DNA of 64,000 nucleotides from contig CP021228.1 in the NCBI GenBank assembly GCA_003999685.1, positions 1,674,001 to 1,738,000 on the forward strand, given 5' to 3'. The DNA is from Taiwanofungus camphoratus (Eukaryota > Basidiomycota > Agaricomycetes > Polyporales > Taiwanofungaceae). The position numbers and the translations under genes were made by a program. Position 1 is the stretch's first letter, and each line of letters begins with the position of its first letter. Positions 1 through 60,484 of this stretch are shown here, one piece after another. Under the pieces are notes generated by a model. The model searched no databases. It was not told the DNA's origin and saw only the letters and a program-made list of their open reading frames with translations.

Positions 1-267
1 GTGAAATGTCAAGATTGCTCTGGAAAGGAATATGAGTAGGTGTTTTTGGAAGAGGCCTGAACCTCTGCCTAGTATATAAACCCTGGTTCTCTTCTGTTGG
101 TGGGTCACAAATCATTTTCTTCACAACATCTGTCATGGCTGAGAAAATCACCACTGGATGCTGATAAGACTGGGAAGTTTGAAGCCTTAAGTGGTTTGTA
201 CCCAGGGGGAGTTCAAAGCCTTCAGTGGTTTGTACCCACATCCACCTAACAAGAGTTAGGTTTGACC

Positions 268-341
268 GACACTATAGCTTAATGGTCTAAAGCATTGGAA
301 GGCCAGTTGAGAGGATGCAGGTTCGAATTCTGCTAGTGTCG
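268..341 (+). tRNA. tRNA-like gene or tRNA-derived repeat head
   Basis: A 73-nt sequence with a perfect 7-bp acceptor stem (GACACTA with TAGTGTC), a 4-bp D stem (GCTT/AAGC), a T arm with loop TTCGAAT, an A box (TAGCTTAATGG), a near-consensus B box (GTTCGAATTC) and a downstream TTTT run like a Pol III terminator. The anticodon stem pairs poorly and loop position 33 is not T, so the anticodon cannot be read with confidence. It may be a tRNA pseudogene or the head of a tRNA-derived SINE. Confidence 0.5.
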
Positions 342-40766: not shown

Positions 40767-40818
40767 TTAGGTTAGGTTAGGTTAGGATTAGCGTTAGGTT
40801 AGGTTAGGTTAGGTTAGG
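40767..40818 (+). repeat. Interstitial (TTAGG)n tract
   Basis: About ten 5-bp TTAGG repeats with the recurrent interruption GGATTAGCGTTAGG. The G-rich strand is +. Confidence 0.95.
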
Positions 40819-41670
40819 AGGTGGAGCGAGACCGCCGATAGGCGGGCGAGCGTAGTAAGAGATGAGAAGAAGATAGAGAAGACAAGAGTAAACAATAGTA
40901 TCTGTCGCCAGATACCAACTTGTTTCGCTAAGAGCTCATCAGTACTCTCGTCGTACTTTTAACCGATGGTTCAGGGTCATCAGCTGATTGACCCTGAGTC
41001 ATCGGCCGGAGGCCGATGACTGATTCAATTTGACCAACCAGGCCATGAGGTAGGATGACCATCCAATCACATGAATGGTATTTCTCTTATCTCTTATCAG
41101 CGGGCCGACAAAAGGCAGGCTAGAACGCCCTAGCCTTTACCAATACCGCCACCTGATCAGAGATATCAATCAGATGTAAAGATAAGGAGTCATTTGATAT
41201 GACTCATAGATAAAAGATCCCTTATCATCGGTTAAGATGACAGGGTGGGAATAGAACAATCCGGGCCGGTGCCGACCGAGTCACATGACCGGTCCGACTT
41301 CCGGGCGCCTAGATAAGGGCAGCGTGGACCACTGAGGAAGCATCATGTCACGGCACAAACCTGAGGATCCCTAGGAACACCCTCACCGAGCCATGCGGGG
41401 CGGGGGCGGGATATTCGCTAGGACCGCGTCCGGCAAGTTGCCGCACCGTGCCATAGCATGTTACACCTCACAGATCACCGGATCATGGACTAACACAGCA
41501 GAGGGGCGCTGGTGACCATAACTAGGTAGTGCCCAGGCCAGTCCAGCCTCGCGGCTCAACCGGTCCGTGCCTGGATGCTGATCACATGGCCGGCCCTCTC
41601 GGGCGAGTCACGTGACGAGCGTCTTATTTCCCAAGACTACCAAATGGAGAAGGCGCGGTAGCGCCTTCAG
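40819..41670. repeat. B-type subtelomeric unit B1
   Basis: About 850 bp, related to A units in the shared block GGCAGCGTGGACCACTGAGG, but otherwise diverged. It ends with a GGCGCGGTAGCGCC hairpin before the tract. Confidence 0.85.
40884..40949 (-). ncRNA. Hammerhead ribozyme, B type (unit B1)
   Basis: CUGAUGA, stem II GCU/AGC, GAAA. Stem III is CAA/UUG plus an upper hairpin GUAUCUG-GCGA-CAGAUAC. Stem I is GAGUA/UACUC, extended outward. The core is intact, with arms different from the A type. Confidence 0.88.
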
Positions 41671-41690
41671 TTAGGTTAGGTTAGGTTAGG

Positions 41691-42561
41691 AGGTGGAGCG
41701 AGCAGCGCCGCAGGTGCTGCGAGTGCGATACGGGCTTGAAAGGAGGACTTAGAGGAAGCTAGTACTAATTAGCTCGCCTATGGAGGGGCGGGCAGCTAAT
41801 TTCGACTAAGTCTCATCAGAGCACTAGCTGTCGATTTTAACCGAGTTCAACCAAAGTCATGCTTATGGTTGAGTCATGGCCCGGGGGCCGATGACTAAGT
41901 CAGTTTGACTTAACCAGGGCAAAGGGTTGCAGGTGCGAGCGAATCACGTCTCTCGCTCCTATCCTAATCAATCAGCGCTGAGCAATCAACATTGTCTAGA
42001 TTCGCCTAGACACCATTACTGATCAGATGTCAGAGTCATCTGATTAAGATTAGAATCCGGACCTAAAGCCTAGGCTTCAAGATCCGAGATAAGAGATAGG
42101 AAGTCCGGGCCGGAGGTTAGTCCGGGCCGGACATAGATAGAAACAGCTTAGCCGGTGCCGCACCGATCATGTGACCGGGCCGCTTTTCCGGGCGTCTACT
42201 AAGGGCAGCGTGGACCACTGAGGAAGCATCATGTCATGGCACAAACCTGGGAATCCCCGTGAACACCCTGTCCGAGCCATGCGGGGCGGGGGAAGGATAT
42301 TCAATAGGACCGCGTCCAGCAAGTTGCCGCACCGTGCTCTAGCATGTTACAACCCACAGATCACCAGATCATGGACTAACACAGCAGAGGGGCGCCGGGG
42401 ACCATAGTAGTTAACGCGCGCTCCGCTAGCATGCGGGAACGGCGCGCACCGGGCCGCAGTGAAGGGCCGGTCCGTACTAAGTGCCGAACATATCACGTGA
42501 CACGTAAGGCGCCTATCTATTTTTAGGCAACCCTAAGCGCAGGACTGGGTAAGTCCGGCGG
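41691..42561. repeat. A-type unit A2 (full length)
   Basis: 870-bp unit with the variant tail AGCAGCGCCGCAGGTGCTGC and a variant stem III in its ribozyme; ends AAGTCCGGCGG. Confidence 0.85.
41758..41828 (-). ncRNA. Hammerhead ribozyme (unit A2)
   Basis: Intact core. Stem III is UUAGCU/AGCUAA instead of UUAGCC/GGCUAA, a compensatory change, with a different upper stem (CGCC/GGCG). Confidence 0.92.
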
Positions 42562-44358: not shown

Positions 44359-44410
44359 TTAGGTTAGGTTAGGTTAGGATTAGCGTTAGGTTAGGTTAGG
44401 TTAGGTTAGG
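44359..44410 (+). repeat. Interstitial (TTAGG)n tract
   Basis: TTAGG repeats with the same ATTAGCG interruption found at the right end of the other A units. Confidence 0.95.
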
Positions 44411-44438
44411 AGGTGGAGCGAGCAACGACGAAGGAGTC
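44411..44438. repeat. A-type micro-copy A5a (28 bp)
   Basis: Only the terminal tail of the unit (AGGTGGAGCGAGCAACGACG then AAGGAGT) between two TTAGG tracts: a strongly 5'-truncated copy. Confidence 0.8.
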
Positions 44439-44456
44439 AGGTTAGGTTAGGTTAGG

Positions 44457-44752
44457 AGGTGGAGCGAGCAACGACGAAGGAGTTGCGAGCGTTGAGAAGA
44501 CTTAATGGAAGCTAGTACTAATTAGCCCGATATCGCTATCGGACGGCTAATTTCGACTAAGTCTCATCAGAGCACTAGCGTCGCTTATAACCAAGTTCAA
44601 CCAAAGTCACGCTTATGGTTGAGTCAGGGCCCGGGGGCCGGTGACTAAGTCAGTTTGACCGTACCAGGGCAAAGGGTTGCAAGTGGGAGCGAATCACGTC
44701 TCTCCCTCCTATCCTAATCAGTCAGCGCCAAGTCAAAAGACATTGTCTAGAT
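44457..44752. repeat. A-type truncated unit A5b (about 296 bp)
   Basis: Matches the tail, ribozyme and first third of an A unit, then breaks off inside CATTGTCTAGAT and continues directly as TTAGG repeats. Confidence 0.85.
44511..44579 (-). ncRNA. Hammerhead ribozyme (unit A5b)
   Basis: Core and all three stems intact, same as A1. Confidence 0.93.
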
Positions 44753-44805
44753 AGGTTAGGTTAGGTTAGGTTAGGTTAGGTTAGGTTAGGTTAGGTTAGG
44801 TTAGG
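44753..44805 (+). repeat. Interstitial (TTAGG)n tract
   Basis: Uninterrupted 5-bp repeats for about 53 bp, added directly on a truncated unit end. Confidence 0.95.
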
Positions 44806-45660
44806 AGGTGGAGCGAGCAACGACGAAGGAGTTGCGAGCGTTGAGAAGACTTAATGGAAGCTAGTACTAATTAGCCCGATATCACTATCGGACGGCTAAT
44901 TTCGACTAAGTCTCATCAGAGCACTAGCGTCGCTTATAACCAAGTTCAACCAAAGTCACGCTTATGGTTGAGTCAGGGCCCGGGGGCCGATGACTAAATC
45001 AGTTTGACCTTACCAGGGCAAAGGGTTGTAGGTGGGAGCGAATCACGTCTCTCCCTCCTATCCTAATCAGTCAGCGATGAGCAATCATCATTGTCTAGAT
45101 TCGCCTAGACACCATTACTGATCAGATGTCAGAGTCATCTGATTAAGATTTAGAATCCGGACCGCAAGCCTAGGCTCAAGATCCGAGATAAGAGATAGGA
45201 AATCCGGACCGGAGGTTAGTCCGGGCCGGATATAGATAGGAACAACATAGCCGGTGCCGCGCCGATCATGTGACCGGGCCGCATTTCCGGGCGTCTACTA
45301 AGGGTAGCGTGGACCACTGAGGAAGCATCATGTCATGGCACAAACCTGGGAATCCCCGTGAGCACCCTATCCGAGCCATGCGGGGCGGGGGAAGGATACT
45401 CAATAGGACCGCGTCCAGCAAGTTGCCGCACCGTGCTCTAGCATGTTACAACCCACAGATCACCAGATCATGGACTAACACAGCAGAGGGGCGCTAGGGA
45501 CCATAGTAGTTATCGCGCGCTCCGCTAGCATGCGGGGACGGCGCGCACCGGGCCGCAGTGAAGGGCCGGTCCGTACTAAGTGCCGAACATATCATGTGAC
45601 ACGTAAGGCGCCTATCTATTTTTAGGCAACCCTAAGCGCAGGACTGAGTAAGTCCGGCGG
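44806..45660. repeat. A-type unit A6 (full length)
   Basis: 855-bp unit next to the 3' side of PLE1; tail variant AGCAACGACGAAGGAGTTGC. Confidence 0.85.
44860..44928 (-). ncRNA. Hammerhead ribozyme (unit A6)
   Basis: Core intact; the stem III cap is GUGA instead of GCGA, still a GNRA tetraloop. Confidence 0.93.
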
Positions 45661-45758: not shown

Positions 45759-48700
45759 TCTGGTTTGAACAGACAACCCTAATACACCAACACACTAAGA
45801 TAACGTTACACCTGATGTAACCGATGCTAATCAAACTGACTTAACAGTTTTAAATATCCATTTCCAGAAGTGCGTCATCCGCACTTTGGGCATTAATAAC
45901 ACTTCTGCGCCATTTACTTGCTAGGTCAGCGAAATTGGTTTCCCGTTTCCGCGACACAAGCCAGCGCTTGTCTAAGAATCCGAGTTGGGAAAGGTCAGGG
46001 ACCTTCTCCGCCTCAATAAATCCGGTGGGTTTCCTTAGGTACCGCCCAGTCCATACCCAGCCCTCGTCTGCGCGGTTATCATGGACAACCGCCGCCAGTG
46101 TCGAGATTTGATCAGACCGCCGGGCTTCAGCGGCGGTACGATCTGCTGCTGCCGAAGCAGCCGCCGTTTCGCGCGACAGCTTTCGCTGGGCTACTCGGGC
46201 GGGATCCCACCACTCCTCAAGCGTGGTCTGAACTGTGCCGGAAAGGGTCGCATCCCGCGAACCCCCAGCCGAATAATCGAAAATCGGAGCGGCCGAGTTT
46301 TCCCAGCTCGCCGAAAAGAAGTTTTTGAAGAAACTCAAAGACTCCACCCAAGATCCGGTGACACGTGTCATTAATTCATGAATATCGAAAGAATCCCATG
46401 AAGGGTTGAATTGTGATTTAAGCACAAGTACGCCATCATTCGCGTCCGCTTTTTCGGTCGAAGTTTGTTTTATATCCAAACGTTTCGCCCAGCGTACTGC
46501 TTTATGTGCATCAAGCCAGGAGACCACCAGAGCAGGAGGATAGCCACGGCCGACGTACAAATCGACAAGCCCTTTAAGGGCATCTAAGTAGTGTTCCAAC
46601 TTAGAACTTAGCGTAGCTAAACGGCTCATCTCCCCAATGAACGTGCCTTTTTTAACGTCCTTTGGGTGGTGAGATATCCATGGTATTCTTTCATGATGGT
46701 TAAGTGCTTTCCGATACGGCTTATGTTCCACCCGGTTGGTAGCGGGGTCAATATAAATAAGCATGTCAAGGAACGGCGTTGCCCATTCCGACACTTCCCA
46801 TGTTATAGTACAGCCAGTGTATGAAATACGACTGGTACAGAGTTCAAGTGCTTCTGCTGCACTACCTGCTTCAACGATAGCGAATACATCATCGATGTAC
46901 CGCCCATAATAAAGAAAGGGTGGGCTAACCTGCCCAGAAGGCCAGACTTTATTTTCAAAATGGCATCCATATAGGTTAGCGAGGTCGGGCGAACATGCCA
47001 CTCCCATTGCTAACCCTCGTTTTTGAAGAAATGTGTGACCGTTGAAGTCGACTATTAGATCGTAATTGGCTGATTGCATACACCGAATAAACAAGGCATT
47101 GTAAAATTCGGGGTGGTCCGTAGTTTGACTACCCAGTGGATGACTAATATACAGTTTTGAGACAATGCCAACGCATTCTCTGAGTGGTACATTAGGGTAG
47201 AAAGCGACGACGTCGCCGGCCACTAACCAATACTTTTTATATTTTAGTGTTTTAACCGTTGCTAACTTGCCAGCAAGATCTTTACTGCCATGTATAATAA
47301 AGGGCTCAGCCTCTATGATAGGTTTCAACAACTTGGATACTACTTTAGCCGCGGGGCCTTGAGCGCATGAATGACAGGGCACAATCGGCCGCATCTTCAC
47401 TGGTGTCTTATGGATTTTTGGGATACCATAGAAGATGGGAACCTTAGGCTCTTCCAACTCGCTCTCGGGACATTTTGACCGAAGGTATTTGGCTAACTGG
47501 AGTGTCTGATCATGAGGCAAAGCCCCTTCGACCCAATCGCTTAACTCCTTAACCCGCTTAGTAACCTTTTCTAAGTACATCTGTCGTTGACCGGGATTAA
47601 TTTCCTGATAGTCAGCCGTATTTGACAGAAGTAAGTTGCAACCATTAATGAACCATTCCTTTGTGACTACAGCAGCGCCGAGGTTCTTATCCGTTTGGAG
47701 GACGAGGTAGTTATGCTCGTCCAGCCAGAGGCGAACTTTGTCCAGGTCTACAAGTCGATTAGGACGACTTCTAGCTTTCAAACCGGGTACGACAGTGCGT
47801 ATGAATTCAGTGACGTATGTTTGCCCGCGTTTAAGACCAAGCTCGATATATTGGCTGGCTTGAGGCGCGTTGCTATCACGCTTTAATCTCAAGTCGTAGT
47901 CAGGATCATAAGGTGGTTGACTTATTCCTTGCCGTTCAAGAATTTTTTGTTTGCAGGCGAAATGAATTCTCCACCGAATTCTTTCACAAAAATCATCATA
48001 AGCGTTTTGAACCAACTCCCCTGAAGGGGGAGCGTACAGCATGTACTTAAGTCCGCAAGAAATGTGAATACTGATCTCCGCCGGTAATCTAACATCGTCG
48101 CCAACATGAACCCATGTCCGGAACCTCTGTGCCTCGACTAAAGCGGCCGGTGCAAAGTAAAGGAGGGTGCGTGCCCCGACTGGTGTAGGTAGATCAAGTA
48201 TTGCGTCAGGATAGGTGGAGGGTTGCGAGAATCTGAGTCGCGACCGAAGGACATACCGTATTAGTTCGGTCTCCCTTTCCCTTTTCCTTTGTTCTTCTTC
48301 GTCGAAGCCTTTTTCGACGAAGCGGCTTGCTTCTGCTTTGCCGCGCGCTGCGGAGTTTTGGGAGGGCGTCCTCCTGTACTCATGCGCGCTGAACGATTCG
48401 GCGCCTTGCCTTTGCCCTTCTAAAATACGAGAGAGAGCGGCGCCAGGTAAGTTTTTAGGTATTGAACCGTATACAAAACTGACCTGTTGTTTAACGTTCT
48501 TCGAGGTGCCCTCACCTTTCAACCGACGATCAACAGCATCATCGATCAGTTTCTTCAAGGCGGCAGGGTTCTCAGTGGTGTCACTCATTTCCACCTCTGC
48601 AACCGCCTTGAGGGCACTCTTCGCACTGGCTCGAGTCGCCGCATGAGCTAGCTGTGATTCGCGAATATTCACGACACGGAAGCAAAAACGGGGGAGCACA

Positions 48701-49560
48701 GCGACGAATCGCTTGTGTTCCGACTCGAGGACGGGGTCGTTCTGCCATCCCTCAATCTCAACGTTGCCGTCAAGAGAAGTTTTCCACTTAGGAACACGCG
48801 AACTCTGAGAGATCGCGGCCCATTGTGAATCGACCACATCGCGCGCCTTCCCCAACATAGTAGTAGGGTCCAGCGCGCCCTCGAAGAACGTGAGCTCAGC
48901 ACGCTTTTGCGAAATCGCTAAAGCAAGTGCTTCGCGACGAAACGTTTGAAATTTCGTCGCAAGAGCCCCTGGTTCCGCCGGGTGTGTTTCCAGCCAAACT
49001 TTCGCCGACTGGAAAACGGGTTCCCCCATGCCTTGTAACTGGGGCGGAAGGGAACCGTTGGCAAGATGAGCCTCGAGCTCACCCACTTGCTTCGACAAGG
49101 AAACGCAGCGTTCCTTTGCTTCCGCAATGCTAGCCAAAACCGGGCGGAGTACCTCCCGATATACGAGAGGCACAACTGAAAGGACGGTGTCAAATGTCTC
49201 AGCTGAAAGGACGGCGCGGAACTCATCGGCAATAGTCTCAAGTGTCGTCGCTCCCATGGCATAAGCCAACGAGGGGGGAGCAAGATTCCGTGCGATAGCG
49301 GCGCGAAGTGATGCTCCACCTGGTCCGGCGGAAGTCGAACGGGTGGGTCCAGAACGAGGTAGGCGATTGGCCATGTTAAGCAGGGGCAAGGTGTCTCAGC
49401 GGGTAAGAAGTGGAATGAGATGGGACACCTAGCGAAGCAAAGGGCAAGCAAACGGTATTCCTGGATAGGGTTGACAGGCGGTGGAGTAGGAGGCAGGACC
49501 CTGTAGCGCCGTCGAAAACCGAGATGCGGGATGAGAGACAGTTTGGAAGTCGCTGATTGG
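45759..49560 (-). mobile_element. Penelope-like retroelement PLE1 (endonuclease-lacking, telomere-attached)
   Basis: A 90-bp 3' UTR, a 3.5-kb ORF and about 170 bp of 5' leader lie between TTAGG tracts. The element's 3' end abuts the G-rich strand of a telomeric tract and its 5' end faces the chromosome end. This is the orientation known for EN-minus PLEs (Athena, Coprina) that prime on chromosome ends. The intron-bearing unit A7 lies just distal, after only two TTAGG repeats. It could be its 5' leader or a later separate addition. Confidence 0.88.
45850..49389 (-). CDS. Penelope-like reverse transcriptase (EN-minus, Coprina/Athena type), copy 1
   Basis: 1179-codon uninterrupted frame. The likely start is the second Met (49374, MANRLPRSG), because the residues before it differ between copies. 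An N-terminal region of about 550 residues contains a coiled-coil-like segment and basic stretches. RT motifs follow: YGIPKIHKTPVKMRPIV (about residue 653), AGDVVAFYPNVPL (motif A, about 725), GLAMGVACSPDLANLYG (motif B) and YYGRYIDDVFAIV (motif C, about 833). Next is WATPFLDMLIYID (about 873). The fingers/PKIHK pattern and FLDM are typical of PLEs, the group nearest telomerase RT. No GIY-YIG endonuclease follows. The last 200 residues hold an Ala/Arg-rich helix and the conserved end WRRSVINAQSADDALLEMDI. The frame is open throughout, so the copy may be competent. Confidence 0.93.
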   Translation of the reverse strand: MPLLNMANRLPRSGPTRSTSAGPGGASLRAAIARNLAPPSLAYAMGATTLETIADEFRAVLSAETFDTVLSVVPLVYREVLRPVLASIAEAKERCVSLSKQVGELEAHLANGSLPPQLQGMGEPVFQSAKVWLETHPAEPGALATKFQTFRREALALAISQKRAELTFFEGALDPTTMLGKARDVVDSQWAAISQSSRVPKWKTSLDGNVEIEGWQNDPVLESEHKRFVAVLPRFCFRVVNIRESQLAHAATRASAKSALKAVAEVEMSDTTENPAALKKLIDDAVDRRLKGEGTSKNVKQQVSFVYGSIPKNLPGAALSRILEGQRQGAESFSAHEYRRTPSQNSAARGKAEASRFVEKGFDEEEQRKRERETELIRYVLRSRLRFSQPSTYPDAILDLPTPVGARTLLYFAPAALVEAQRFRTWVHVGDDVRLPAEISIHISCGLKYMLYAPPSGELVQNAYDDFCERIRWRIHFACKQKILERQGISQPPYDPDYDLRLKRDSNAPQASQYIELGLKRGQTYVTEFIRTVVPGLKARSRPNRLVDLDKVRLWLDEHNYLVLQTDKNLGAAVVTKEWFINGCNLLLSNTADYQEINPGQRQMYLEKVTKRVKELSDWVEGALPHDQTLQLAKYLRSKCPESELEEPKVPIFYGIPKIHKTPVKMRPIVPCHSCAQGPAAKVVSKLLKPIIEAEPFIIHGSKDLAGKLATVKTLKYKKYWLVAGDVVAFYPNVPLRECVGIVSKLYISHPLGSQTTDHPEFYNALFIRCMQSANYDLIVDFNGHTFLQKRGLAMGVACSPDLANLYGCHFENKVWPSGQVSPPFLYYGRYIDDVFAIVEAGSAAEALELCTSRISYTGCTITWEVSEWATPFLDMLIYIDPATNRVEHKPYRKALNHHERIPWISHHPKDVKKGTFIGEMSRLATLSSKLEHYLDALKGLVDLYVGRGYPPALVVSWLDAHKAVRWAKRLDIKQTSTEKADANDGVLVLKSQFNPSWDSFDIHELMTRVTGSWVESLSFFKNFFSASWENSAAPIFDYSAGGSRDATLSGTVQTTLEEWWDPARVAQRKLSRETAAASAAADRTAAEARRSDQISTLAAVVHDNRADEGWVWTGRYLRKPTGFIEAEKVPDLSQLGFLDKRWLVSRKRETNFADLASKWRRSVINAQSADDALLEMDI

Positions 49561-49570
49561 TTAGGTTAGG
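49561..49570 (+). repeat. Two TTAGG repeats between PLE1 and unit A7
   Basis: TTAGGTTAGG only; the same two-repeat spacing recurs at 56949-56958. Confidence 0.9.
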
Positions 49571-49576
49571 AGGTGG

Positions 49577-50739
49577 CATGCGTATACACTTTTGAACTCT
49601 GTCCGAGTCCCAGGATGTGTACGGTTTCGAAGCTATGATCAGGGAGATTCGTCGTTCCCCAAACCCTTTATCCACCAAAAGTCGCCCCTAAGTGCTGGAC
49701 CCCCGGCATCCCGGTAGACAATCCCAAGGAGGGCCATGCCTGCCGTAATAGTCACGAAGGTACACAATCTCCGGTTGACAGATCCCTTGGCAACGACCCT
49801 AGTGCCCGAGGGCTTCGGGCGGTCATCTCTCGGCAAAGCCCGCAGAGCTTTCATAGCCATATGGGTGTACCGACCAAGACATACCCCGATCAAAAAACAG
49901 CAGAGGCATCTCACCATAGGGTGTACCGACCAGACCCATCGTCGACAGACACCTGAAGGTTCAATATGGAGGAGGGTGAGTTAGATAAATCAAGATCCCG
50001 TCAACATACACCAGAACACTGAGTCAGGGGAGTCTACGAGGGATTGAATCCGACCCGTGTAACCATCCTGTAAGTGCTGAGGTGGCGACCCTAACGGCTA
50101 CAGTTTTCACCGAGTCGGGCCGACTATGCGACTATCCGGAGTTCGCGCACCATGGGCAGCTGGGTCCCAAGAAGGGCCATGCTCTGATCTGCGCCCCACA
50201 GTGTTTAGCTACCGGACACGGGTTTCCCCGCTATAAAGACTATATCTTAAGATGTCACTACCGTCTCGTCATTGGCACGGAAAAGAAGATGACCCAGCAT
50301 CACGCCAAGGTGCCATCCCCTAATCCTGGGCGTCGTCCCGCCTAGAGAGGAATAGTAGCCGCAGCCAACGACACCCGACAACCACTTAGTCGTTGAACGC
50401 TGATCCAGAGCCCTTTCAGGTTGGACCTTCGCTGCGGGTAACCCATTTTGCTCGCGCTCATCCTTTGGATTATTACCATACCCGCTCCCCAGCGGTGCCT
50501 AACACCTTGCGGTGAGTCGGCGGTACCTCAGGCTTTAGGGTGTTCCCGAACAATTCGGTCGTCTCGCCCCGCGCAGTAGAGACTTGCCAGGAGGGTACCC
50601 CGTTGTCTCAGTCCTTTAGACCTACGAGACTTCAGGTCCTGACATCGCCCAATGGACCACTCACCTGAAACGGCTAGGCACTTCAGAGGCCTACTCTCTC
50701 GCTAGAGAGGCTTGGAGATGCTGGTAGCCATGGTCCTCG
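49577..50739 (-). ncRNA. Group I intron (IC1-like) interrupting unit A7
   Basis: 1163 nt; RNA runs from 50739 to 49577. Core elements: GGGUAUGGUAAUAA (P5-P6 region, 50470-50483); P3 GACGACC (50557-50563) with GGUUGUC (50377-50383), 7 bp; R element GUUCAACGACUAAG (50386-50399); P7 GACUA with UAGUC (50238-50242); J8/7-P7 UAAGAUAUAGUC identical to the Tetrahymena intron; P9 hairpin GCGGG-GAAA-CCCGU (50218-50231); and a CACC-GCAA-GGUG loop in P5. The 5' exon ends GCUCGCU and the intron ends in G before CCACCUCC. Candidate guide GGUGAG (50660-50665) pairs with CUCGCU with the required U-G wobble. The 3' extension of about 620 nt has no recognisable homing endonuclease. Confidence 0.92.
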
Positions 50740-50787
50740 AGCGAGCAACGACGAAGGAGTTGCGAGCGTTGAGAAGACTTAATGGAA

Positions 50788-50856
50788 GCTAGTACTAATT
50801 AGCCCGATATCACTATCGGACGGCTAATTTCGACTAAGTCTCATCAGAGCACTAGC
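50788..50856 (-). ncRNA. Hammerhead ribozyme (unit A7)
   Basis: Core intact, GUGA cap as in A6. It lies upstream of the intron in RNA sense. Confidence 0.93.
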
Positions 50857-51165
50857 GTCGCTTATAACCAAGTTCAACCAAAGTCACGCTTATGGTTGAG
50901 TCAGGGCCCGGGGGCCGATGACTAAATCAGTTTGACCTTACCAGGGCAAAGGGTTGTAGGTGGGAGCGAATCACGTCTCTCCCTCCTATCCTAATCAGTC
51001 AGCGATGAGCAATCATCATTGTCTAGATTCGCCTAGACACCATTACTGATCAGATGTCAGAGTCATCTGATTAAGATTTAGAATCCGGACCGCAAGCCTA
51101 GGCTCAAGATCCGAGATAAGAGATAGGAAATCCGGACCGGAGGTTAGTCCGGGCCGGATATAGAT

Positions 51166-51242
51166 AGGTTAGGTTAGGTTAGGTTAGGTTAGGTTAGGTT
51201 TAGGGTTAGGTTAGGTTAGGTTAGGTTTAGGGTTAGGTTAGG
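51166..51242 (+). repeat. Interstitial telomeric tract with mixed TTAGG/TTTAGGG repeats
   Basis: 77 bp; includes two TTTAGGGTTAGG interruptions, shared exactly with 58554-58630. Confidence 0.95.
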
Positions 51243-52103
51243 AGGTCTATGTATCAACACTACAAGGGCTGCGAGTGCAGGGCAGGGGGGAGGCTTAGAG
51301 GAAGCTAGTACTAATTAGCCCGATATCGCTATCGGACGGCTAATTTCGACTAAGTCTCATCAGAGCACTAGCGTCGCTTATAACCAAGTTCAACCAAAGT
51401 CACGCTTATGGTTGAGTCATGGCCAGGGGGCCGGTGACTAAGTCAATTTGACCGAACCAGGGCAAAGGGTTGCAGGTGGGAGCGAATCACGTCTCTCCCT
51501 CCTATCCTAATCAGTCAGCGATGAGCAATCATCATTGTCTAGATTCGCCTAGACACCATTACTGATCAGATGTCAGAGTCATCTGATTAAGATTAGAATC
51601 CGGATCGCAAGCCTAGGCTCAAGATCCGAGATAACAGATAGGAAGCCCGGGCCGGAGGTTAATCCGGGCCGGGTATAGATAGGAACAAATTAGCCGGTAC
51701 CGCACCGATCATGTGACCGGGCCGCTTTTCCGGGCGTCTACTAAGGGCAGCGTGGACCACTGAGGAAGCATCATGTCATGGCACAAACCTGGGAATCCCC
51801 GTGAGCACCCTGTCCGAGCCATGCGGGGCGGGGGAAGGATACTCAATAGGACCGCGTCCAGCAAGTTGCCGCACCGTGCTCTAGCATGTTACAACCCACA
51901 GATCACCAGATCATGGACTAACACAGCAGAGGGGCGCTGGGGACCATAGTAGTTAACGCGCGCTCCGCTAGCATGCGGGGACGGCGCGCACCGGGCCGCA
52001 GTGAAGGGCCGGTCCGTACTAAGTGCCGAACATATCACGTGACACGTAAGGCGCCTATCTATTTTAAGGCAACCCTAAGCGCAGGACTGGGTAAGTCCGG
52101 CGG
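51243..52103. repeat. A-type unit A8 (full length)
   Basis: 861-bp unit with the AGGTCTATGTATCAACAC tail variant, nearly identical to A11. Confidence 0.85.
51304..51372 (-). ncRNA. Hammerhead ribozyme (unit A8)
   Basis: Core and stems intact, as in A1. Confidence 0.93.
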
Positions 52104-52175
52104 TTAGGTTAGGTTAGGTTAGGATTAGCGTTAGGTTAGGTTAGGTTAGGTTAGGTTAGGTTCGGTTAGGTTAGG
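52104..52175 (+). repeat. Interstitial (TTAGG)n tract
   Basis: 72 bp of TTAGG repeats with the ATTAGCG and TTCGG interruptions. Confidence 0.95.
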
Positions 52176-53045
52176 AGGTGGAGCGAGCAGCGCCGCAGGT
52201 GCTGCGAGTGCGATACGGGCTTGAAAGGAGGACTTAGAGGAAGCTAGTACTAATTAGCTCGCCTATGGAGGGGCGGGCAGCTAATTTCGACTAAGTCTCA
52301 TCAGAGCACTAGCTGTCGATTTTAACCGAGTTCAACCAAAGTCATGCTTATGGTTGAGTCATGGCCCGGGGGCCGGTGACTAAGTCAGTTTGACTTAACC
52401 AGGGCAAAGGGTTGCAGGTGCGAGCGAATCACGTCTCTCGCTCCTATCCTAATCAATCAGCGCTGAGCAATCAACATTGTCTAGATTCGCCTAGACACCA
52501 TTACTGATCAGATGTCAGAGTCATCTGATTAAGATTAGAATCCGGACCGAAAGCCTAGGCTTAAGATCCGAGATAAGAGATAGGAAGCCCGGGCCGGAGG
52601 TTAGTCCGGGCCGGGTATAGATAGAAACAGTTTAGCCGGTGCCGCACCGATCATGTGACCGGGCCGCTTTTCCGGGCGTCTACTAAGGGCAGCGTGGACC
52701 ACTGAGGAAGCATCATGTCATGGCACAAACCTGGGAATCCCCGTGAACACCCTGTCCGAGCCATGCGGGGCGGGGGAAGGATATTCAATAGGACCGCGTC
52801 CAGCAAGTTGCCGCACCGTGCTCTAGCATGTTACAACCCACAGATCACCAGATCATGGACTAACACAGCAGAGGGGCGCTGGGGACCATAGTAGTTAACG
52901 CGCGCTCCGCTAGCATGCGGGGACGGCGCGCACCGGGCCGCAATGAGGGGCCGGTCCGTACTAAGTGCCGAACATATCACGTGACACGTAAGGCGCCTAT
53001 CTATTTTAAGGCAACCCTAAGCGCAGGACTGGGAAAGTCCGGCGG
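52176..53045. repeat. A-type unit A9 (full length)
   Basis: 870-bp unit, variant like A2, lying on the 3' side of PLE2. Confidence 0.85.
52243..52313 (-). ncRNA. Hammerhead ribozyme (unit A9)
   Basis: Intact core with the A2-type covarying stem III (UUAGCU/AGCUAA). Confidence 0.92.
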
Positions 53046-53143: not shown

Positions 53144-56100
53144 TCTGGTTTGAACAGACAACCCTAATACGCCAACACACTAAGATAACGTTACACCTGA
53201 TGTAACCGATGCTAATCAAACTGACTTAACAGTTTTAAATATCCATTTCCAAAAGTACATCATCTGCACTTTGGGCATTAATAACACTTCTGCGCCATTT
53301 ACTTGCTAAGTCCGCGAAATTGGTTTCCCGCTTCCGAGACACAAGCCAGCGCTTGTCTAAGAATCCGAGTTGGGAAAGGTCTGCGACCTTCTCCGCCTCA
53401 ATAAATCCGGTGGGTTTCCTTAGGTACCGCCCAGTCCATACCCAGCCCTCTTCTGCGCGGTTATCATGGACAACCGCCGCCAGGTTAGAGATTTGATCAG
53501 ACCGCCGGGCTTCAGCGGCGGCACGATCTGCTGCTGCCGAAGCAGCCGCCGTTTCGCGCGACAGCTTGCGCTGGGCTACTCGGGCGGGATCCCACCACTC
53601 CTCAAGCGTGGTCTGAACTGTGCCGGATAGGGTCGCATCCCGCGAACCCCCAGCCGAATAATCGAAAATCGGAGCGGCCGAGTTTTCCCAACTCGCCGAA
53701 AAGAAGTTTTTGAAGAAACTCAAAGACTCCACCCACGATTCCGTAACACGTGTCATTAATTCATGAATATCGAAAGAATCCCATGAAGGGTTAAATTGCG
53801 ACTTAATCACAAGTACGCCATCATTCGCGTCCGCCGCTTTGGTCGAAGTTTGTTTAATTTCCAAACGTTTCGCCCAGCGTACTGCTTTATGTGCATCAAG
53901 CCATGCAACAACCAGAGCAGGGGGATAACCACGGCCGACGTACAAATCGACAAGCCCTTTAAGGGCATCTAAGTAATGTTCCAACTTAGAACTTAGCGTG
54001 GCTAAACGGCTCATCTCTCCAATGAACGTGCCTTTTTTAACGTCCTTTGGATGGTGAGATATCCATGGTATTCTTTCATGATGGTTAAGTGCTTTCCGAT
54101 ACGGCTTATGTTCCACCCGGTTGGTTACGGGGTCAATATAAATAAGCATGTCAAGGAATGGCGTCGCCCATTCAGACACTTCCCATGTTATAGTGCAACC
54201 AGTGTAAGAGATACGACTAGTACAGAGTTCAAGAGCCTCTGCTGCACTACCTGCTTCAACGATGGCGAATACATCATCGATGTACCGCCCATAATAAAGA
54301 AAGGGTGGGCTAACCTGCCCAGAAGGCCAGACTTTATTTTCAAAATGGCATCCATATAAATTAGCTAGGTCGGGCGAGCACGCCACTCCCATAGCTAGTC
54401 CACGTTTTTGAAGAAATGTGTGACCGTTGAAGTCAACTATTAGGTCATAATTGGCTGATTGCATACACCGAATGAACAAGGCGTTGTAAAATTCGGGGTG
54501 GTCCGTTGATTGACTACCTAGTGGATGACTGATGTACAATTTAGATACAATGCCTACGCATTCTCTGAGGGGTACATTTGGGTAGAAAGCGACAACGTCG
54601 CCGGCCACCAGCCAATATTTTTTATATTTTAGTGTTTTAACCGTTGCTAACTTGGCAGCAAGATCTTTGCTACCATGTATAATAAAAGGCTCAGCTTCTA
54701 TGATGGGTTTCAACAACTTGGATACTACTTTAGCCGCGGGGCCTTGAGCGCATGAGTGACAGGGCACAATTGGCCGCATCTTTACAGGTGTCTTATGGAT
54801 TTTTGGGATACCATAAAAGATGGGAACCTTAGGCTCATCCAACTCGCTCTCGGGACATTTAGACCGAAGATATTTGGCTAACTGGAGTGTCTGATCGTGA
54901 GGCAAGGCCCCTTCGACCCAATCGCTTAACTCCTTAACCCGCTTAGTAACCTTTTCTAAGTACATCTGTCGCTGACCGGGATTAATTTCCTGATAGTCAG
55001 CCGTATTAGACAGAAGTAAGTTGCAACCATTAACGAACCATTCCCTTGTGACTACAGCAGCGCCGAGGTTCTTATCCGTTTGGAGGATGAGGTAGTTATG
55101 CTCATCCAACCAGAGGCGAACTTTGTCCAGGTCTACAAGCCGATTAGGGCGGCTTCTAGCTTTCAAACCGGGTACGACAGTGCGTATGAATTCAGTGACG
55201 TATGTTTGCCCGCGTTTAAGACCAAGTTCGATATATTGGCTGGCTTGAGGCGCGTTGCTATCGCGCTTTAGTCTCAAGTCGTAGTCAGGATCGTAGGGTG
55301 GTTGACTTATACCTTGCCGCTCAAGGATCTTTTGTTTACAGGCAAAGTGCACTCTCCATCGTACACGTTCACAAAAGTCATCATAAGCGTTTTGAACCAA
55401 CTCCCCAGAAGGGGGAGCGTACAGCATGTACTTAAGTCCGCAAGATATATGTATACTGATTTCCGCAGGTAAACTAACACCGTCGCCAACATGAACCCAA
55501 GTCCGGAACCTCTGTGCCTCGACTAAAGCCGCCGGTGCAAAGTAAAGGAGGGTGCGTGCCCCGACTGGTGTAGGAAGATCGAGTATACAATCAGGATAAG
55601 TGGAGGGTTGCGAGAAGCGGAGTCGCGACCGAAGAACACACCGTATTAGTTCGGTCTCCCTTTCCCTTTTCCTTTGTTCTTCTTCATCGTCGAAGCTTTC
55701 TTCGATGAAGCGGCCTGCTTTTGCTTTGCCGCGCGCTGCGGAGCTTTGGGAGGGCGTCCTCCTGTGCTCATGCGCGCTGAACGATTCGGCGCCTTGCCTT
55801 TGCCTTTCTAAAATACGAGAAAGGGCGGCGCCAGGTAAGTCTTTGGGTACTGAACCATGTACAAAACTGACCTGCTGTTTAACGTTCTTTGAGGTGCCCT
55901 CACCTTTCAACCGACGATCAACCGCGTCATCGATCAGTTTTTTCAAAGCAGCGGGGTTCTCGGTGGTATCGCTCATCTCTACCTCCGCCACTGCTTTGAG
56001 GGCACTCTTTGCATTGGCTCGAGTCGCGGCATGTGCTAACTGTGATTCGCGAATGTTCACGACACGAAAGCAAAACCGCGGGAGCACAGCGACAAAGCGC

Positions 56101-56948
56101 TTGTGTTCCGACTCGAGGACGGGGTCGTTCTGCCAACCTTCAATCTCGACGTTCCCATCGAGAGAAGTTCTCCACTTAGGGACACGCGATCCTTGTGAGA
56201 TCGCAGCCCATTGAGTGTCGACCACGTCGCGCGCCTTCCCCAACATGGTAGTAGGGTCCAGCGCGCCCTCAAAGAACGTGAGCTCAGCACGCTTTTGCGC
56301 AATGGCTAAAGCGAGTGCTTCGCGGCGAAACGTTTTAAATTTCTCCGCAAGAGCCCCTGGTTCCGCCGGGTGTGTTTCCAACCATGCTTTCGCAGACTGG
56401 AAAACGGGTTCCCCCATGCCTTGTAACTGGGGCGGAAGGGAACCGCTGGCAAGATGAGCCTCGAGCTCACCCACTTGCTTCGACAAAGAAACGCAGCGTT
56501 CCTTTGCTTCCGCAATGCTAGCCAGAACCGGGCGGAGTACCTCCCGGTATACGAGAGGCACGACTGATAAGACGGTGTCAAATGTTTCAGCTGAAAGGAC
56601 GGCGCGGAACTCATCGGCAATAGTCTCAAGTGACGTCGCTCCCATGGCATAAGCCAACGAGGGGGGAGCAAGGTTCCTCGCAATAGCGGCGCGAAGTGAC
56701 GCTCCACCTGGTCCTGCGGAAGTCGAACGGGTGGATCCAGGACGAGGTAGGCGATTGGCCATTGTAAGCAAGCGCAAGGTGCGTCAGGAGGGAGAAAATG
56801 AAAAGAGATTGGGCACCGAGCGAAGCAGAGGGCGAGCAGTCGGTATTCCTGGATCGGATTGACGGGTGGGGGGGTCGGAGGCAGAACCCGATAACGTCGT
56901 CGAAAACCGAGATGCGGTATGAGAGACAGTTTGGAAAGCGCTGATTGG
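53144..56948 (-). mobile_element. Penelope-like retroelement PLE2
   Basis: Same arrangement as PLE1: 3' end on a TTAGG tract, ORF, short leader, two TTAGG repeats, then an intron-bearing A unit. The nucleotide sequence differs from PLE1 throughout the ORF at many scattered, mostly third-codon, positions. Confidence 0.88.
53235..56777 (-). CDS. Penelope-like reverse transcriptase (EN-minus), copy 2
   Basis: 1180 uninterrupted codons (likely start MANRLPRPG at 56762). All RT motifs of copy 1 are present and identical (PKIHK, AGDVVAFYPN, AMGVACSP, YIDDVF). Differences from copy 1 lie mainly in the N-terminal third and in the linker near SFDDEEEQRKRE. The open frame despite many silent differences suggests that selection kept the protein. 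No endonuclease domain. Confidence 0.93.
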   Translation of the reverse strand: MRLLTMANRLPRPGSTRSTSAGPGGASLRAAIARNLAPPSLAYAMGATSLETIADEFRAVLSAETFDTVLSVVPLVYREVLRPVLASIAEAKERCVSLSKQVGELEAHLASGSLPPQLQGMGEPVFQSAKAWLETHPAEPGALAEKFKTFRREALALAIAQKRAELTFFEGALDPTTMLGKARDVVDTQWAAISQGSRVPKWRTSLDGNVEIEGWQNDPVLESEHKRFVAVLPRFCFRVVNIRESQLAHAATRANAKSALKAVAEVEMSDTTENPAALKKLIDDAVDRRLKGEGTSKNVKQQVSFVHGSVPKDLPGAALSRILERQRQGAESFSAHEHRRTPSQSSAARGKAKAGRFIEESFDDEEEQRKRERETELIRCVLRSRLRFSQPSTYPDCILDLPTPVGARTLLYFAPAALVEAQRFRTWVHVGDGVSLPAEISIHISCGLKYMLYAPPSGELVQNAYDDFCERVRWRVHFACKQKILERQGISQPPYDPDYDLRLKRDSNAPQASQYIELGLKRGQTYVTEFIRTVVPGLKARSRPNRLVDLDKVRLWLDEHNYLILQTDKNLGAAVVTREWFVNGCNLLLSNTADYQEINPGQRQMYLEKVTKRVKELSDWVEGALPHDQTLQLAKYLRSKCPESELDEPKVPIFYGIPKIHKTPVKMRPIVPCHSCAQGPAAKVVSKLLKPIIEAEPFIIHGSKDLAAKLATVKTLKYKKYWLVAGDVVAFYPNVPLRECVGIVSKLYISHPLGSQSTDHPEFYNALFIRCMQSANYDLIVDFNGHTFLQKRGLAMGVACSPDLANLYGCHFENKVWPSGQVSPPFLYYGRYIDDVFAIVEAGSAAEALELCTSRISYTGCTITWEVSEWATPFLDMLIYIDPVTNRVEHKPYRKALNHHERIPWISHHPKDVKKGTFIGEMSRLATLSSKLEHYLDALKGLVDLYVGRGYPPALVVAWLDAHKAVRWAKRLEIKQTSTKAADANDGVLVIKSQFNPSWDSFDIHELMTRVTESWVESLSFFKNFFSASWENSAAPIFDYSAGGSRDATLSGTVQTTLEEWWDPARVAQRKLSRETAAASAAADRAAAEARRSDQISNLAAVVHDNRAEEGWVWTGRYLRKPTGFIEAEKVADLSQLGFLDKRWLVSRKRETNFADLASKWRRSVINAQSADDVLLEMDI

Positions 56949-56964
56949 TTAGGTTAGGAGGTGG

Positions 56965-58127
56965 CATGCGTATACACTTTTGAACTCTGTCCGAGTCCCA
57001 GGATGTGTACGGTTTCGAAGCTATGATCAGGGAGATTCGTCGTTCCCCAAACCCTTTATCCACCAAAAGTCGCCCCTAAGTGCTGGACCCCCGGCATCCC
57101 GGTAGACAATCCCAAGGAGGGCCATGCCTGCCGTAATAGTCACGAAGGTACACAATCTCCGGTTGACAGATCCCTTGGCAACGACCCTAGTGCCCGAGGG
57201 CTTCGGGCGGTCATCTCTCGGCAAAGCCCGCAGAGCTTTCATAGCCATATGGGTGTACCGACCAAGACATACCCCGATCAAAAAACAGCAGAGGCATCTC
57301 ACCATAGGGTGTACCGACCAGACCCATCGTCGACAGACACCTGAAGGTTCAATATGGAGGAGGGTGAGTTAGATAAATCAAGATCCCGTCAACATACACC
57401 AGAACACTGAGTCAGGGGAGTCTACGAGGGATTGAATCCGACCCGTGTAACCATCCTGTAAGTGCTGAGGTGGCGACCCTAACGGCTACAGTTTTCACCG
57501 AGTCGGGCCGACTATGCGACTATCCGGAGTTCGCGCACCATGGGCAGCTGGGTCCCAAGAAGGGCCATGCTCTGATCTGCGCCCCACAGTGTTTAGCTAC
57601 CGGACACGGGTTTCCCCGCTATAAAGACTATATCTTAAGATGTCACTACCGTCTCGTCATTGGCACGGAAAAGAAGATGACCCAGCATCACGCCAAGGTG
57701 CCATCCCCTAATCCTGGGCGGCGTCCCGCCTAGAGAGGAATAGTAGCCGCAGCCAACGACACCCGACAACCACTTAGTCGTTGAACGCTGATCCAGAGCC
57801 CTTTCAGGTTGGACCTTCGCTGCGGGTAACCCATTTTGCTCGCGCTCATCCTTTGGATTATTACCATACCCGCTCCCCAGCGGTGCCTAACACCTTGCGG
57901 TGAGTCGGCGGTACCTCAGGCTTTAGGGTGTTCCCGAACAATTCGGTCGTCTCGCCCCGCGCAGTAGAGACTTGCCAGGAGGGTACCCCGTTGTCTCAGT
58001 CCTTTAGACCTACGAGACTTCAGGTCCTGACATCGCCCAATGGACCACTCACCTGAAACGGCTAGGCACTTCAGAGGCCTACTCTCTCGCTAGAGAGGCT
58101 TGGAGATGCTGGTAGCCATGGTCCTCG
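56965..58127 (-). ncRNA. Group I intron, second copy (unit A10)
   Basis: Same 1163-nt length and same flanks as the first copy. The only difference I found by eye is one base (GGGCGGCG against GGGCGTCG near 57720). It has the same U|C 5' splice site, terminal G and core motifs. Confidence 0.92.
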
Positions 58128-58175
58128 AGCGAGCAACGACGAAGGAGTTGCGAGCGTTGAGAAGACTTAATGGAA

Positions 58176-58244
58176 GCTAGTACTAATTAGCCCGATATCA
58201 CTATCGGACGGCTAATTTCGACTAAGTCTCATCAGAGCACTAGC
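58176..58244 (-). ncRNA. Hammerhead ribozyme (unit A10)
   Basis: Core intact, identical to the A7 copy. Confidence 0.93.
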
Positions 58245-58553
58245 GTCGCTTATAACCAAGTTCAACCAAAGTCACGCTTATGGTTGAGTCAGGGCCCGGG
58301 GGCCGATGACTAAATCAGTTTGACCTTACCAGGGCAAAGGGTTGTAGGTGGGAGCGAATCACGTCTCTCCCTCCTATCCTAATCAGTCAGCGATGAGCAA
58401 TCATCATTGTCTAGATTCGCCTAGACACCATTACTGATCAGATGTCAGAGTCATCTGATTAAGATTTAGAATCCGGACCGCAAGCCTAGGCTCAAGATCC
58501 GAGATAAGAGATAGGAAATCCGGACCGGAGGTTAGTCCGGGCCGGATATAGAT

Positions 58554-58630
58554 AGGTTAGGTTAGGTTAGGTTAGGTTAGGTTAGGTTTAGGGTTAGGTT
58601 AGGTTAGGTTAGGTTTAGGGTTAGGTTAGG
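58554..58630 (+). repeat. Interstitial telomeric tract with mixed repeats
   Basis: 77 bp, same irregular pattern as 51166-51242. Confidence 0.95.
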
Positions 58631-59491
58631 AGGTCTATGTATCAACACTACAAGGGCTGCGAGTGCAGGGCAGGGGGGAGGCTTAGAGGAAGCTAGTACT
58701 AATTAGCCCGATATCGCTATCGGACGGCTAATTTCGACTAAGTCTCATCAGAGCACTAGCGTCGCTTATAACCAAGTTCAACCAAAGTCACGCTTATGGT
58801 TGAGTCATGGCCAGGGGGCCGGTGACTAAGTCAATTTGACCGAACCAGGGCAAAGGGTTGCAGGTGGGAGCGAATCACGTCTCTCCCTCCTATCCTAATC
58901 AGTCAGCGATGAGCAATCATCATTGTCTAGATTCGCCTAGACACCATTACTGATCAGATGTCAGAGTCATCTGATTAAGATTAGAATCCGGATCGCAAGC
59001 CTAGGCTCAAGATCCGAGATAACAGATAGGAAGCCCGGGCCGGAGGTTAATCCGGGCCGGGTATAGATAGGAACAAATTAGCCGGTACCGCACCGATCAT
59101 GTGACCGGGCCGCTTTTCCGGGCGTCTACTAAGGGCAGCGTGGACCACTGAGGAAGCATCATGTCATGGCACAAACCTGGGAATCCCCGTGAGCACCCTG
59201 TCCGAGCCATGCGGGGCGGGGGAAGGATACTCAATAGGACCGCGTCCAGCAAGTTGCCGCACCGTGCTCTAGCATGTTACAACCCACAGATCACCAGATC
59301 ATGGACTAACACAGCAGAGGGGCGCTGGGGACCATAGTAGTTAACGCGCGCTCCGCTAGCATGCGGGGACGGCGCGCACCGGGCCGCAGTGAAGGGCCGG
59401 TCCGTACTAAGTGCCGAACATATCACGTGACACGTAAGGCGCCTATCTATTTTAAGGCAACCCTAAGCGCAGGACTGGGTAAGTCCGGCGG
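58631..59491. repeat. A-type unit A11 (full length)
   Basis: 861-bp unit, near-identical to A8. Confidence 0.85.
58692..58760 (-). ncRNA. Hammerhead ribozyme (unit A11)
   Basis: Core and stems intact. Confidence 0.93.
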
Positions 59492-59543
59492 TTAGGTTAG
59501 GTTAGGTTAGGATTAGCGTTAGGTTAGGTTAGGTTAGGTTAGG
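59492..59543 (+). repeat. Interstitial (TTAGG)n tract
   Basis: 52 bp of TTAGG repeats with the ATTAGCG interruption. Confidence 0.95.
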
Positions 59544-59606
59544 AGGTGGAGCGAGCAACGACGAAGGAGTTGCGAGCGTTGAGAAGACTTAATGGAAGCT
59601 AGTACT
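59544..59606. repeat. A-type micro-copy A12 ending at the ribozyme cleavage site
   Basis: 63 bp of unit tail ending ...GCTAGTACT, followed at once by TAGGGTTAGG. In full units the sequence goes on AATTAGCC. The break is exactly the predicted hammerhead cut. Confidence 0.88.
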
Positions 59607-59631
59607 TAGGGTTAGGTTAGGTTAGGTTAGG
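59607..59631 (+). repeat. Telomeric repeats capping A12
   Basis: One TTAGGG-like repeat and then TTAGG repeats, 25 bp. Confidence 0.9.
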
Positions 59632-60484
59632 AGGTGGAGCGAGACCGCCGATAGGCGGGCGAGCGTAGTAAGAGATGAGAGAAATAGGGAAGACAAGAGT
59701 AAACAAAGGTATCTATTGCTAGACACCCACTTGTTTCGCTAAGGAGCTCATCAGTACTCTCGTCGTACTTTTAACCGATGGTTCAGGGTCATCAGATGAT
59801 TGACCCTGAGTCATCGGCCGGAGGCCGATGACTGATTCTATTTGACCAACCAGGCCATGAGGTAGTGGTGAGCTCCAATCACATTAGAGCTATTTCTCTT
59901 ATCTCTTATCAGCGGGCCGACAAAAGGCAGGCTAGAACGCCCTAGCCTTTACCAATACCGCCACCTGATCAGAGATAACAATCAGATGTAAAGATAAGGA
60001 GTCATTTGATATGACTCATAGATAAGAGATCCCTTTATCATCGGTTAGGATGATAAGGGTGGGAATAGAACAATCCGGGCCGGTGCCGACCGAGTCACAT
60101 GACCGGTCCGGTTTCCGGGCGCCTAGATAAGGGCAGCGTGGACCACTGAGGAAGCATCATGTCACGGCACAAACCTGAGGATCCCTAGGAACACCCTCAC
60201 CGAGCCATGCGGGGCGGGGGCGGGATATTCACTAGGACCGCGTCCGGCAAGTTGCCGCACCGTGCCATAGCATGTTACACCTCACAGATCACCGGATCAT
60301 GGACTAACACAGCAGAGGGGCGCTGGTGACCATAACTAGGTAGTGCCCAGACCAGTCCAGCCTCGCGGCTCAACCGGTCCGTGCCTGGATGCTGATCACA
60401 TGTCCGGCCCTTTCGGGCAAGTCACGTGACGAGCGTCTTATTTCCCAAAACTACCAAATGGAGAAGGTGCGGTAGCGCCTTCAG
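59632..60484. repeat. B-type subtelomeric unit B2
   Basis: 853-bp relative of B1 with scattered substitutions; ends in the same GGTAGCGCC hairpin region, then a TTAGG tract and PLE3. Confidence 0.85.
59695..59761 (-). ncRNA. Hammerhead ribozyme, B type (unit B2)
   Basis: Core intact. Stem II is GCU-CCUU-AGC. The upper stem III is GUGUCUA-GCAA-UAGAUAC against GUAUCUG-GCGA-CAGAUAC in B1: a paired change and a kept GNRA loop. Confidence 0.88.

Follow-up and report, generated by a model that had tools for sequence, protein, structure and literature searches.

A group I intron at a precise site in the tail of a reverse-transcriptase element from a telomere-repeat array of Taiwanofungus camphoratus

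RESULTS AND DISCUSSION

Content of the locus

The stretch of DNA analyzed here, referred to below as the window, comprises 64,000 nucleotides of T. camphoratus contig CP021228.1 (assembly GCA_003999685.1, positions 1,674,001 to 1,738,000 of the forward strand). Its right part is an array of units separated by TTAGG-type telomere repeats on the plus strand, from which we infer that the chromosome end lies to the right and that the units read on the minus strand toward the centromere. Three long reverse-transcriptase (RT) open reading frames (ORFs), here called A, B, and C, and 13 predicted hammerhead motifs lie on that strand, and two nearly identical copies of a group I intron (copies A and B) interrupt the tail module shared by the units. 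The features are as follows, with all coordinates given in the window.

49577-50739, minus strand: group I intron, copy A, 1163 nt (5' end 50739, 3' end 49577)
56965-58127, minus strand: group I intron, copy B, with 1 mismatch to copy A
50216-50643, minus strand: ribozyme core of copy A matched by the full RF00028 model
57604-58031, minus strand: ribozyme core of copy B matched by the full RF00028 model
50645-50649, minus strand: proposed internal guide sequence GGCGA (intron nt 91-95), pairing with 5' exon UCGCU
50557-50563, minus strand: P3 5' strand GACGACC (partner 50377-50383, GGUUGUC)
50387-50391, minus strand: P7 5' strand GACUA (partner 50238-50242, UAGUC)
50370-50376, minus strand: P8 5' strand GGGUGUC (partner 50250-50256, GACAUCU)
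50218-50231, minus strand: P9 hairpin with a GAAA loop
49577-50215, minus strand: 3' extension of about 640 nt after P9, with two short direct repeats
50740-50796, minus strand: 5' exon, 57 nt between the predicted hammerhead cleavage and the 5' splice site
49559-49576, minus strand: 3' exon, CCACCTCC followed by two telomere-complement repeats TAACC
50788-50856, minus strand: hammerhead ribozyme motif of the unit carrying intron copy A (predicted cleavage between 50797 and 50796)
58176-58244, minus strand: hammerhead ribozyme motif of the unit carrying intron copy B
44812-45240, minus strand: intron-less sequence, 429 bp identical to the upstream flank of the intron at 50740-51168
44804-44816, minus strand: empty site UCGCU/CCACCUCC (others at 40817-40829, 41689-41701, 44409-44421, 44455-44467, 52174-52186, 59542-59554, and 59630-59642)
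45850-49395, minus strand: RT ORF A, 1181 aa stop to stop, downstream of intron copy A, with an ATG at 49374-49372
53235-56783, minus strand: RT ORF B, 1182 aa stop to stop, downstream of intron copy B
60653-64000, minus strand: RT ORF C, which runs off the window and whose upstream part is not in view
49399-49556, minus strand: coding-like segment upstream of the RT ORF, in another frame and without AUG
51165-51242, plus strand: telomere-repeat stretch (TTAGG)n next to the unit that carries intron copy A

Core structure of the intron

The whole window was scanned on both strands against 4227 Rfam families, which returned three matches. Two were to the group I intron model Intron_gpI (RF00028), at 50643-50216 and 58031-57604 on the minus strand, each covering the full model (positions 1 to 253) with 57.7 bits (gathering score, 50) and an E value of 4.9e-12; both were found again in a separate scan of 39000-64000. 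The third was a tRNA at 268-341, identified as a tRNA-Gly gene with anticodon gcc (267-344, plus strand) at the left end of the window. A covariance-model hit had been named beforehand as the result without which the assignment would fall, and both copies exceeded the curated cut-off.

The sequence-only reading had placed a group I intron at 49577-50739 on the grounds of three motifs in the right order and strand, a 7-bp P3, a 5-bp P7, and a P9 GAAA hairpin, and this observation was confirmed. In intron numbering (50739 is nt 1), P3 pairs nt 177-183 with nt 357-363 (7 bp), P7 pairs nt 349-353 with nt 498-502 (5 bp, GACUA with UAGUC), P8 pairs nt 364-370 with nt 484-490 (7 bp), and P9 spans nt 509-522. 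The letters around the P7 3' strand, AAGAUAUAGUCU, read as the model consensus. As only one independent intron sequence is at hand, the helices of the intron itself were not tested by covariation. The reading did not mention the second copy, the RT start codon downstream on the same strand, or the predicted hammerhead cleavage upstream.

The same reading had regarded this set of features as diagnostic of introns of the IC1 kind. That label rests on the Rfam core plus a P5abc-like motif, GGGUAUGGUAAUAA, which resembles P5abc of the Tetrahymena intron; no subgroup model was run, and the resemblance leaves the subgroup undecided between IC1 and other kinds, although IC1 is considered likely. The extension of about 640 nt after P9 contains short direct repeats of 18 nt (49722-49739 and 50165-50182) and 14 nt (49863-49876 and 49919-49932), and some S1389 rDNA introns also carry direct repeats there (PMC8395846).

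Intron boundaries and 5' splice site pairing

The ends of the intron were fixed without any RNA model. On the minus strand the 13-nt motif UCGCUCCACCUCC is intact at eight places in the window and split at two, with 1163 nt (1 mismatch) between UCGCU and CCACCUCC both times, and removal of 49577-50739 gives GCUCGCU/CCACCUCC. One base (C) can be slid across the boundary; the choice U/C...G/C gives a 5'-exon U and a terminal G, the arrangement that group I introns use (PMC8395846). The boundaries proposed by the sequence-only reading are therefore right. The 429 bp on the 5' side of copy A are identical to an intron-less sequence, as expected for recent gain or for precise loss through spliced RNA. 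However, later conversion of the flank alone could also give such identity, since the array is visibly homogenized, so that recency is suggested and not proved.

In unconstrained folds, the 5' exon UCGCU pairs with intron nt 91-95, putting U.G at the splice site, followed by a P1 extension and then by P2. Pair probabilities for P1 were 0.86 to 1.0 in three windows ending at intron nt 110 to 180 and fell to 0.57 to 0.64 in the window ending at nt 560; for the U.G pair itself they were 0.997, 0.999, and 0.986 in the three windows and 0.639 in the longest. P2 also formed unforced, at 0.99 or more in two windows and 0.70 in the longest. With the real exon the mean pair probability of P1 was 0.97, whereas of 150 random 20-nt pieces of the window ending in U, 1 formed this P1 at a mean probability above 0.9 and 13 paired the last U to some intron G above 0.9.

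A looser test of the guide was less impressive: 472 of 2000 shuffled exons had 5 or more pairs starting with U.G within 5 nt of nt 91. Two other places in intron nt 20-176 also give U.G and 5 or more pairs, namely, nt 75 with 8 and nt 172 with 6, the latter lying next to and partly in P3, and neither is excluded. A guide AGCGAG near the 5' end would give U-A at the splice site and was set aside in favor of the U.G guide that folds unforced. For P10, we observed either one pair next to the guide or a distant 4-bp CCAC/GUGG pairing (nt 80-83), which is not convincing and does not settle whether this helix exists. The free nested fold of the 5' exon plus 560 nt of intron does not choose P3 or P8 and is about 14 kcal/mol better than the fold with P1, P2, P3, and P8 forced (-228.6 against -214.8); however, nested energy folding does not represent the P3-P7 pseudoknot.

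The host element

Pfam RVT_1 matched ORFs A, B, and C with E values of 9.4e-5, 6.4e-5, and 3.3e-6, respectively, all below the curated gathering score, and NCBIfam gave only weak RT-family matches (E value of 0.003 at best), far below cut-offs. No GIY-YIG domain was found by Pfam in ORF A at an E value of 10 or in ORFs B and C at 0.001, although the search filters can lose weak matches. Comparison of A with B gave a dN/dS of 0.08 with a dS of 0.27, and comparison of A with C gave a dN/dS of 0.16, so the ORFs come from lineages under purifying selection. Membership in the Penelope-like element (PLE) class is inferred from architecture and these RVT_1 matches and not from a phylogeny, as the RT was not placed relative to the PLE/telomerase clade; no PDB sequence matched it, and the structure model was too poor (mean pLDDT, 37) for a fold search. 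The short hammerhead-bearing units of the array, many about 900 nt apart and without an ORF of 150 aa, look like 5'-truncated copies of the RT element.

Thirteen hammerhead motifs with a CUGANGA...GAAA core lie on the minus strand between 39969 and 59763; 11 belong to one sequence family and 2 to a clearly different one with compensating stems. In their alignment (13 sequences, 5 distinct), 98.8% of cells in stems I, II, and III paired, compared to a mean of 79.2% for shuffled and 20 to 47% for slid controls, and 9 of 17 pairs changed on both sides. However, 20 of 500 shuffles also reached 9 such pairs, the number of further pair types was no higher than in shuffles (414 of 500), the changes come from few sequence families, stem II has only 3 bp, and no Rfam hammerhead family matched at an E value of 0.5 or better in 39000-64000. 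The pattern used to find the motifs also matched five places outside the telomeric array (near 346, 6727, 7732, 13687, and 34904), which were left out of the 13 and not pursued. Some tail copies, such as those at 44409 and 59542, have no hammerhead before them.

For 11 of the 13 hammerheads, the tail with its UAACC-type repeats begins 108 to 134 nt after the first letter of CUGAUGA, while for the other 2 the intron makes this distance 1271 nt. The tails were sorted by eye into five families; each of the four that were folded (the fifth was not) forms a hairpin before the tail, and three of the five carry the intact motif UCGCUCCACCUCC. A tandem duplication of 46 nt at 44393-44483 contains the empty intron site twice in a row with short telomere repeats.

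No rRNA family reached its gathering score in the window, and genes such as Nrap and PHM7/RSN1, which are eukaryotic, together with the telomere-repeat stretches, place the intron in a nuclear chromosome outside rDNA.

Position of the intron and number of events

The 5' splice site follows the predicted hammerhead cleavage by 57 nt, the 3' exon is CCACCUCC plus two UAACC repeats, and the RT-coding unit comes next, with its ATG 202 nt after the intron. This ATG is the first in the modelled spliced leader, whose 259 nt up to the RT start hold none, while the intron holds 22. The intron can be described as lying either in the 3' tail of one unit or in the leader of the next, with no evidence here as to which transcript matters. 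Splicing would join GUUGCUCGCU to CCACCUCCUAACC, a junction that empty units give as well; no RNA data were examined for it and self-splicing was not assayed, so splicing is not shown.

A segment just upstream of the RT ORF, in another frame, evolves as protein coding. In 49396-49565 (56784-56953 in copy B), 28 codons differ between A and B but only 2 amino acids, and over 49399-49556 the dN/dS was 0.02 with a dS of 1.2. It has no AUG and an in-frame UAA precedes it in the telomeric tail, so that its start is unexplained; a non-AUG start or a spliced upstream exon is possible. At 49553 (minus strand), CTAACCTAACCAATCAG/CG before this segment looks like a spliceosomal branch point and 3' splice site made from telomere repeats, and a donor-like site, CAG/GTGAGT at 50664 (minus strand), lies inside the P1 extension of the group I intron, one of five donor-like matches.

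The two intron copies lie in a block of 2605 bp (49551-52155 against 56939-59543) that contains the intron, hammerhead, telomere repeats, and a further unit and differs at one base only, while the ORFs next to it differ at a dS of 0.27. The block has a sharp edge at the telomeric junction; its left edge lies 26 nt from the 3' end of the intron, and on the other side it reaches about 1.4 kb beyond the intron. As the block was homogenized or copied as a whole, the two copies count as one event.

Searches for relatives and for an endonuclease

No relative of the RT or of the intron was found in the collections searched. A search with RT ORF A in viral contigs gave one pattern match and no relative. 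An 18-nt P7/P3 pattern in viral contigs gave 3 loci, with no Rfam match at gathering score and no similarity beyond the 18 nt, and a 16-nt P5abc pattern gave 27 loci. Comparison of the intron with all 30 loci by blastn returned 15 rows, each 17 to 24 nt long; 8 of the 27 loci were scanned with Rfam, the other 19 being left out, and showed no group I match. A P7 pattern in bacterial and archaeal genomes gave 0 matches. An rDNA source in the same organism was not sought.

Likewise, no homing endonuclease was found in the ORFs tested. Of the 15 ORFs of 40 aa or more listed over the intron, 10 were scanned against Pfam at an E value of 10 and none matched, although HMMER's filters drop most very weak matches. 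Two of these were also compared with the PDB and gave only chance-level hits and no endonuclease.

Interpretation

The sequence-only reading had proposed that the intron colonized a noncoding RNA of a telomere-linked PLE family, and this interpretation is supported within the limits given above for splicing, subgroup, and PLE membership. The host RNA is better described as the hammerhead/telomere-tail module shared by the units, which here also forms the leader of an RT-coding unit. With fairly good confidence, we favor the view that a group I intron ribozyme has entered the RNA of a telomere-linked, hammerhead-bearing, Penelope-like retroelement and is carried by it. The structure of the core, its position, its strand (that of the RT genes), and its precision are shown, as it interrupts with no extra or missing base a motif that ends three of the five tail families and is followed by telomere-complementary UAACC repeats. 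In contrast, recency is only suggested, and splicing, the route of entry, and an origin from an rDNA intron are inferences.

In this view, the intron splices itself out of the RNA of the element, which would restore the hairpin-CCACCUCC-(UAACC)n module and give the RT-coding unit an AUG-free leader. In Terminons, the hammerhead plus reverse-complement telomeric repeats is taken to attach the RNA of the element to the G-rich overhang (PMC6431247). If that holds here, the intron separates the hammerhead and hairpin from the annealing tail, and splicing would rejoin them. Most likely the intron arrived by reverse splicing into the RNA of the element, probably starting from an rDNA intron, and the element's own RT then copied the chimera onto a chromosome end. 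The guide pairs over 5 nt, within the 4 to 6 nt described for reverse splicing (PMC1299323). The same paper calls the availability of RT a likely determinant of the rate of such movement, and experimental evidence for the complete pathway appears to be in question (PMC3679873); an RT-bearing host RNA would supply that step.

Among the alternatives, a dead passenger survives best but is still unlikely. The intron would have entered once by any route, would no longer splice, and would have been amplified only because the telomeric block was copied. Indeed, there is effectively one event and P10 is weak. However, the core matches the full RF00028 model, with AAGAUAUAGUCU equal to consensus, and the otherwise identical 429-bp copy without the intron suggests recent gain or precise loss, leaving little time for decay.

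Arrival by DNA-level homing is somewhat less likely but remains possible. Here an endonuclease, now lost or acting in trans, would have cut the multicopy tail site, and gap repair would have copied the intron together with its flanks. The 2605-bp tract beside more divergent RT ORFs is what such co-conversion leaves, and the extension after P9 could be a decayed endonuclease gene. However, no endonuclease was found in the 10 of 15 intron ORFs tested, and the block reaches about 1.4 kb beyond the intron on one side but 26 nt on the other and includes a further unit, so ordinary gene conversion or break-induced copying between telomeric arrays explains it equally well.

It is also unlikely, though possible, that the intron is a regular part of the retroelement cycle and serves as a processing ribozyme, for example through circular intron RNA or timed removal of the 22 upstream AUGs before RT translation, rather than being a neutral parasite. 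The AUG-free modelled leader and the position 57 nt after the predicted hammerhead cleavage are in line with this. However, 628 of 5000 shuffles of that leader are also ATG free, so this is no evidence of design, and 11 of the 13 hammerheads are followed by a tail without the intron; the upstream part of ORF C lies outside the window. An assembly artifact joining an rDNA intron fragment into the array is very unlikely, because although the window is highly repetitive and the block is present twice with 1 mismatch, an assembler would not be expected to insert exactly at a U/...G/ boundary that restores a motif found intact 8 times in the same array, on the RT strand, and no rRNA sequence was found in the window.

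A further reading, which we offer only tentatively, is a working partnership between a group I ribozyme and a telomeric retroelement in a eukaryotic nucleus. The intron would reverse splice into the multicopy tail RNA, the element's RT would fix it at chromosome ends, and splicing would keep the telomere-annealing tail and RT translation intact. If true, this would be a eukaryotic, RNA-level counterpart of the IStron and a second nuclear niche for group I introns.

Comparison with known systems

Group I introns are a kind of self-splicing RNA parasite. A 2013 review and papers of 2021 and 2022 state that nuclear group I introns lie only in rDNA (PMC3679873, PMC8395846, PMC9223047), in agreement with the view taken in the sequence-only reading. 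A precise insertion into a non-rRNA, telomere-linked retroelement breaks that rule and could show how such introns leave rDNA. Our searches of the open PMC literature, which covers few subscription papers and was not surveyed in full, found no report of a group I intron in a telomeric or Penelope-like element; the papers considered included two that mention both group I introns and Penelope (PMC7761336, PMC5718144), PMC10085805, whose group I introns are mitochondrial, and PMC11167929. What is new is the host, not known to carry a group I intron, while the ribozyme itself is ordinary. The locus also makes testable an old question, whether group I introns spread in nature by reverse splicing followed by reverse transcription, as the host RNA would carry its own RT and attachment site and empty and occupied sites lie side by side. 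Two predicted catalytic RNAs, a hammerhead and a group I intron, lie 57 nt apart in one element.

Retrozymes are hammerhead-bearing nonautonomous retroelements and share with this array the short hammerhead-bearing units beside an RT-coding element. Circular RNA was not tested here, and the short units look like 5'-truncated copies of the RT element and contain telomeric tails. Terminons and other endonuclease-lacking telomeric PLEs, such as Athena and Coprina, likewise have units bounded by telomeric repeats in a head-to-tail array, a 3' hammerhead followed by reverse-complement telomeric repeats, a long RT ORF, and no GIY-YIG match (PMC6431247). However, the Terminon repeats follow the hammerhead immediately, whereas roughly 60 to 80 nt lie between hammerhead and telomere complement here, and a group I intron sits in that spacer.

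Nuclear group I introns of rDNA (IC1 subgroup; the Tetrahymena LSU intron and fungal and myxomycete SSU and LSU introns) share with the present intron the P3-P9 core matched by RF00028, a P1 with U.G at the 5' splice site, which is predicted here, a terminal G, a multicopy repeat as target, and a long extension after P9, as in some S1389 introns (PMC8395846). The host sequence here is a telomere-linked retroelement and not rRNA. The nearest idea is that of the IStrons, chimeras of a bacterial group I intron and an insertion sequence, in which a group I ribozyme is likewise partnered with an unrelated mobile element (PMC4227781). However, IStrons are bacterial and their partner is a DNA transposon that moves the intron, whereas here the intron lies inside a eukaryotic retroelement's own RNA.
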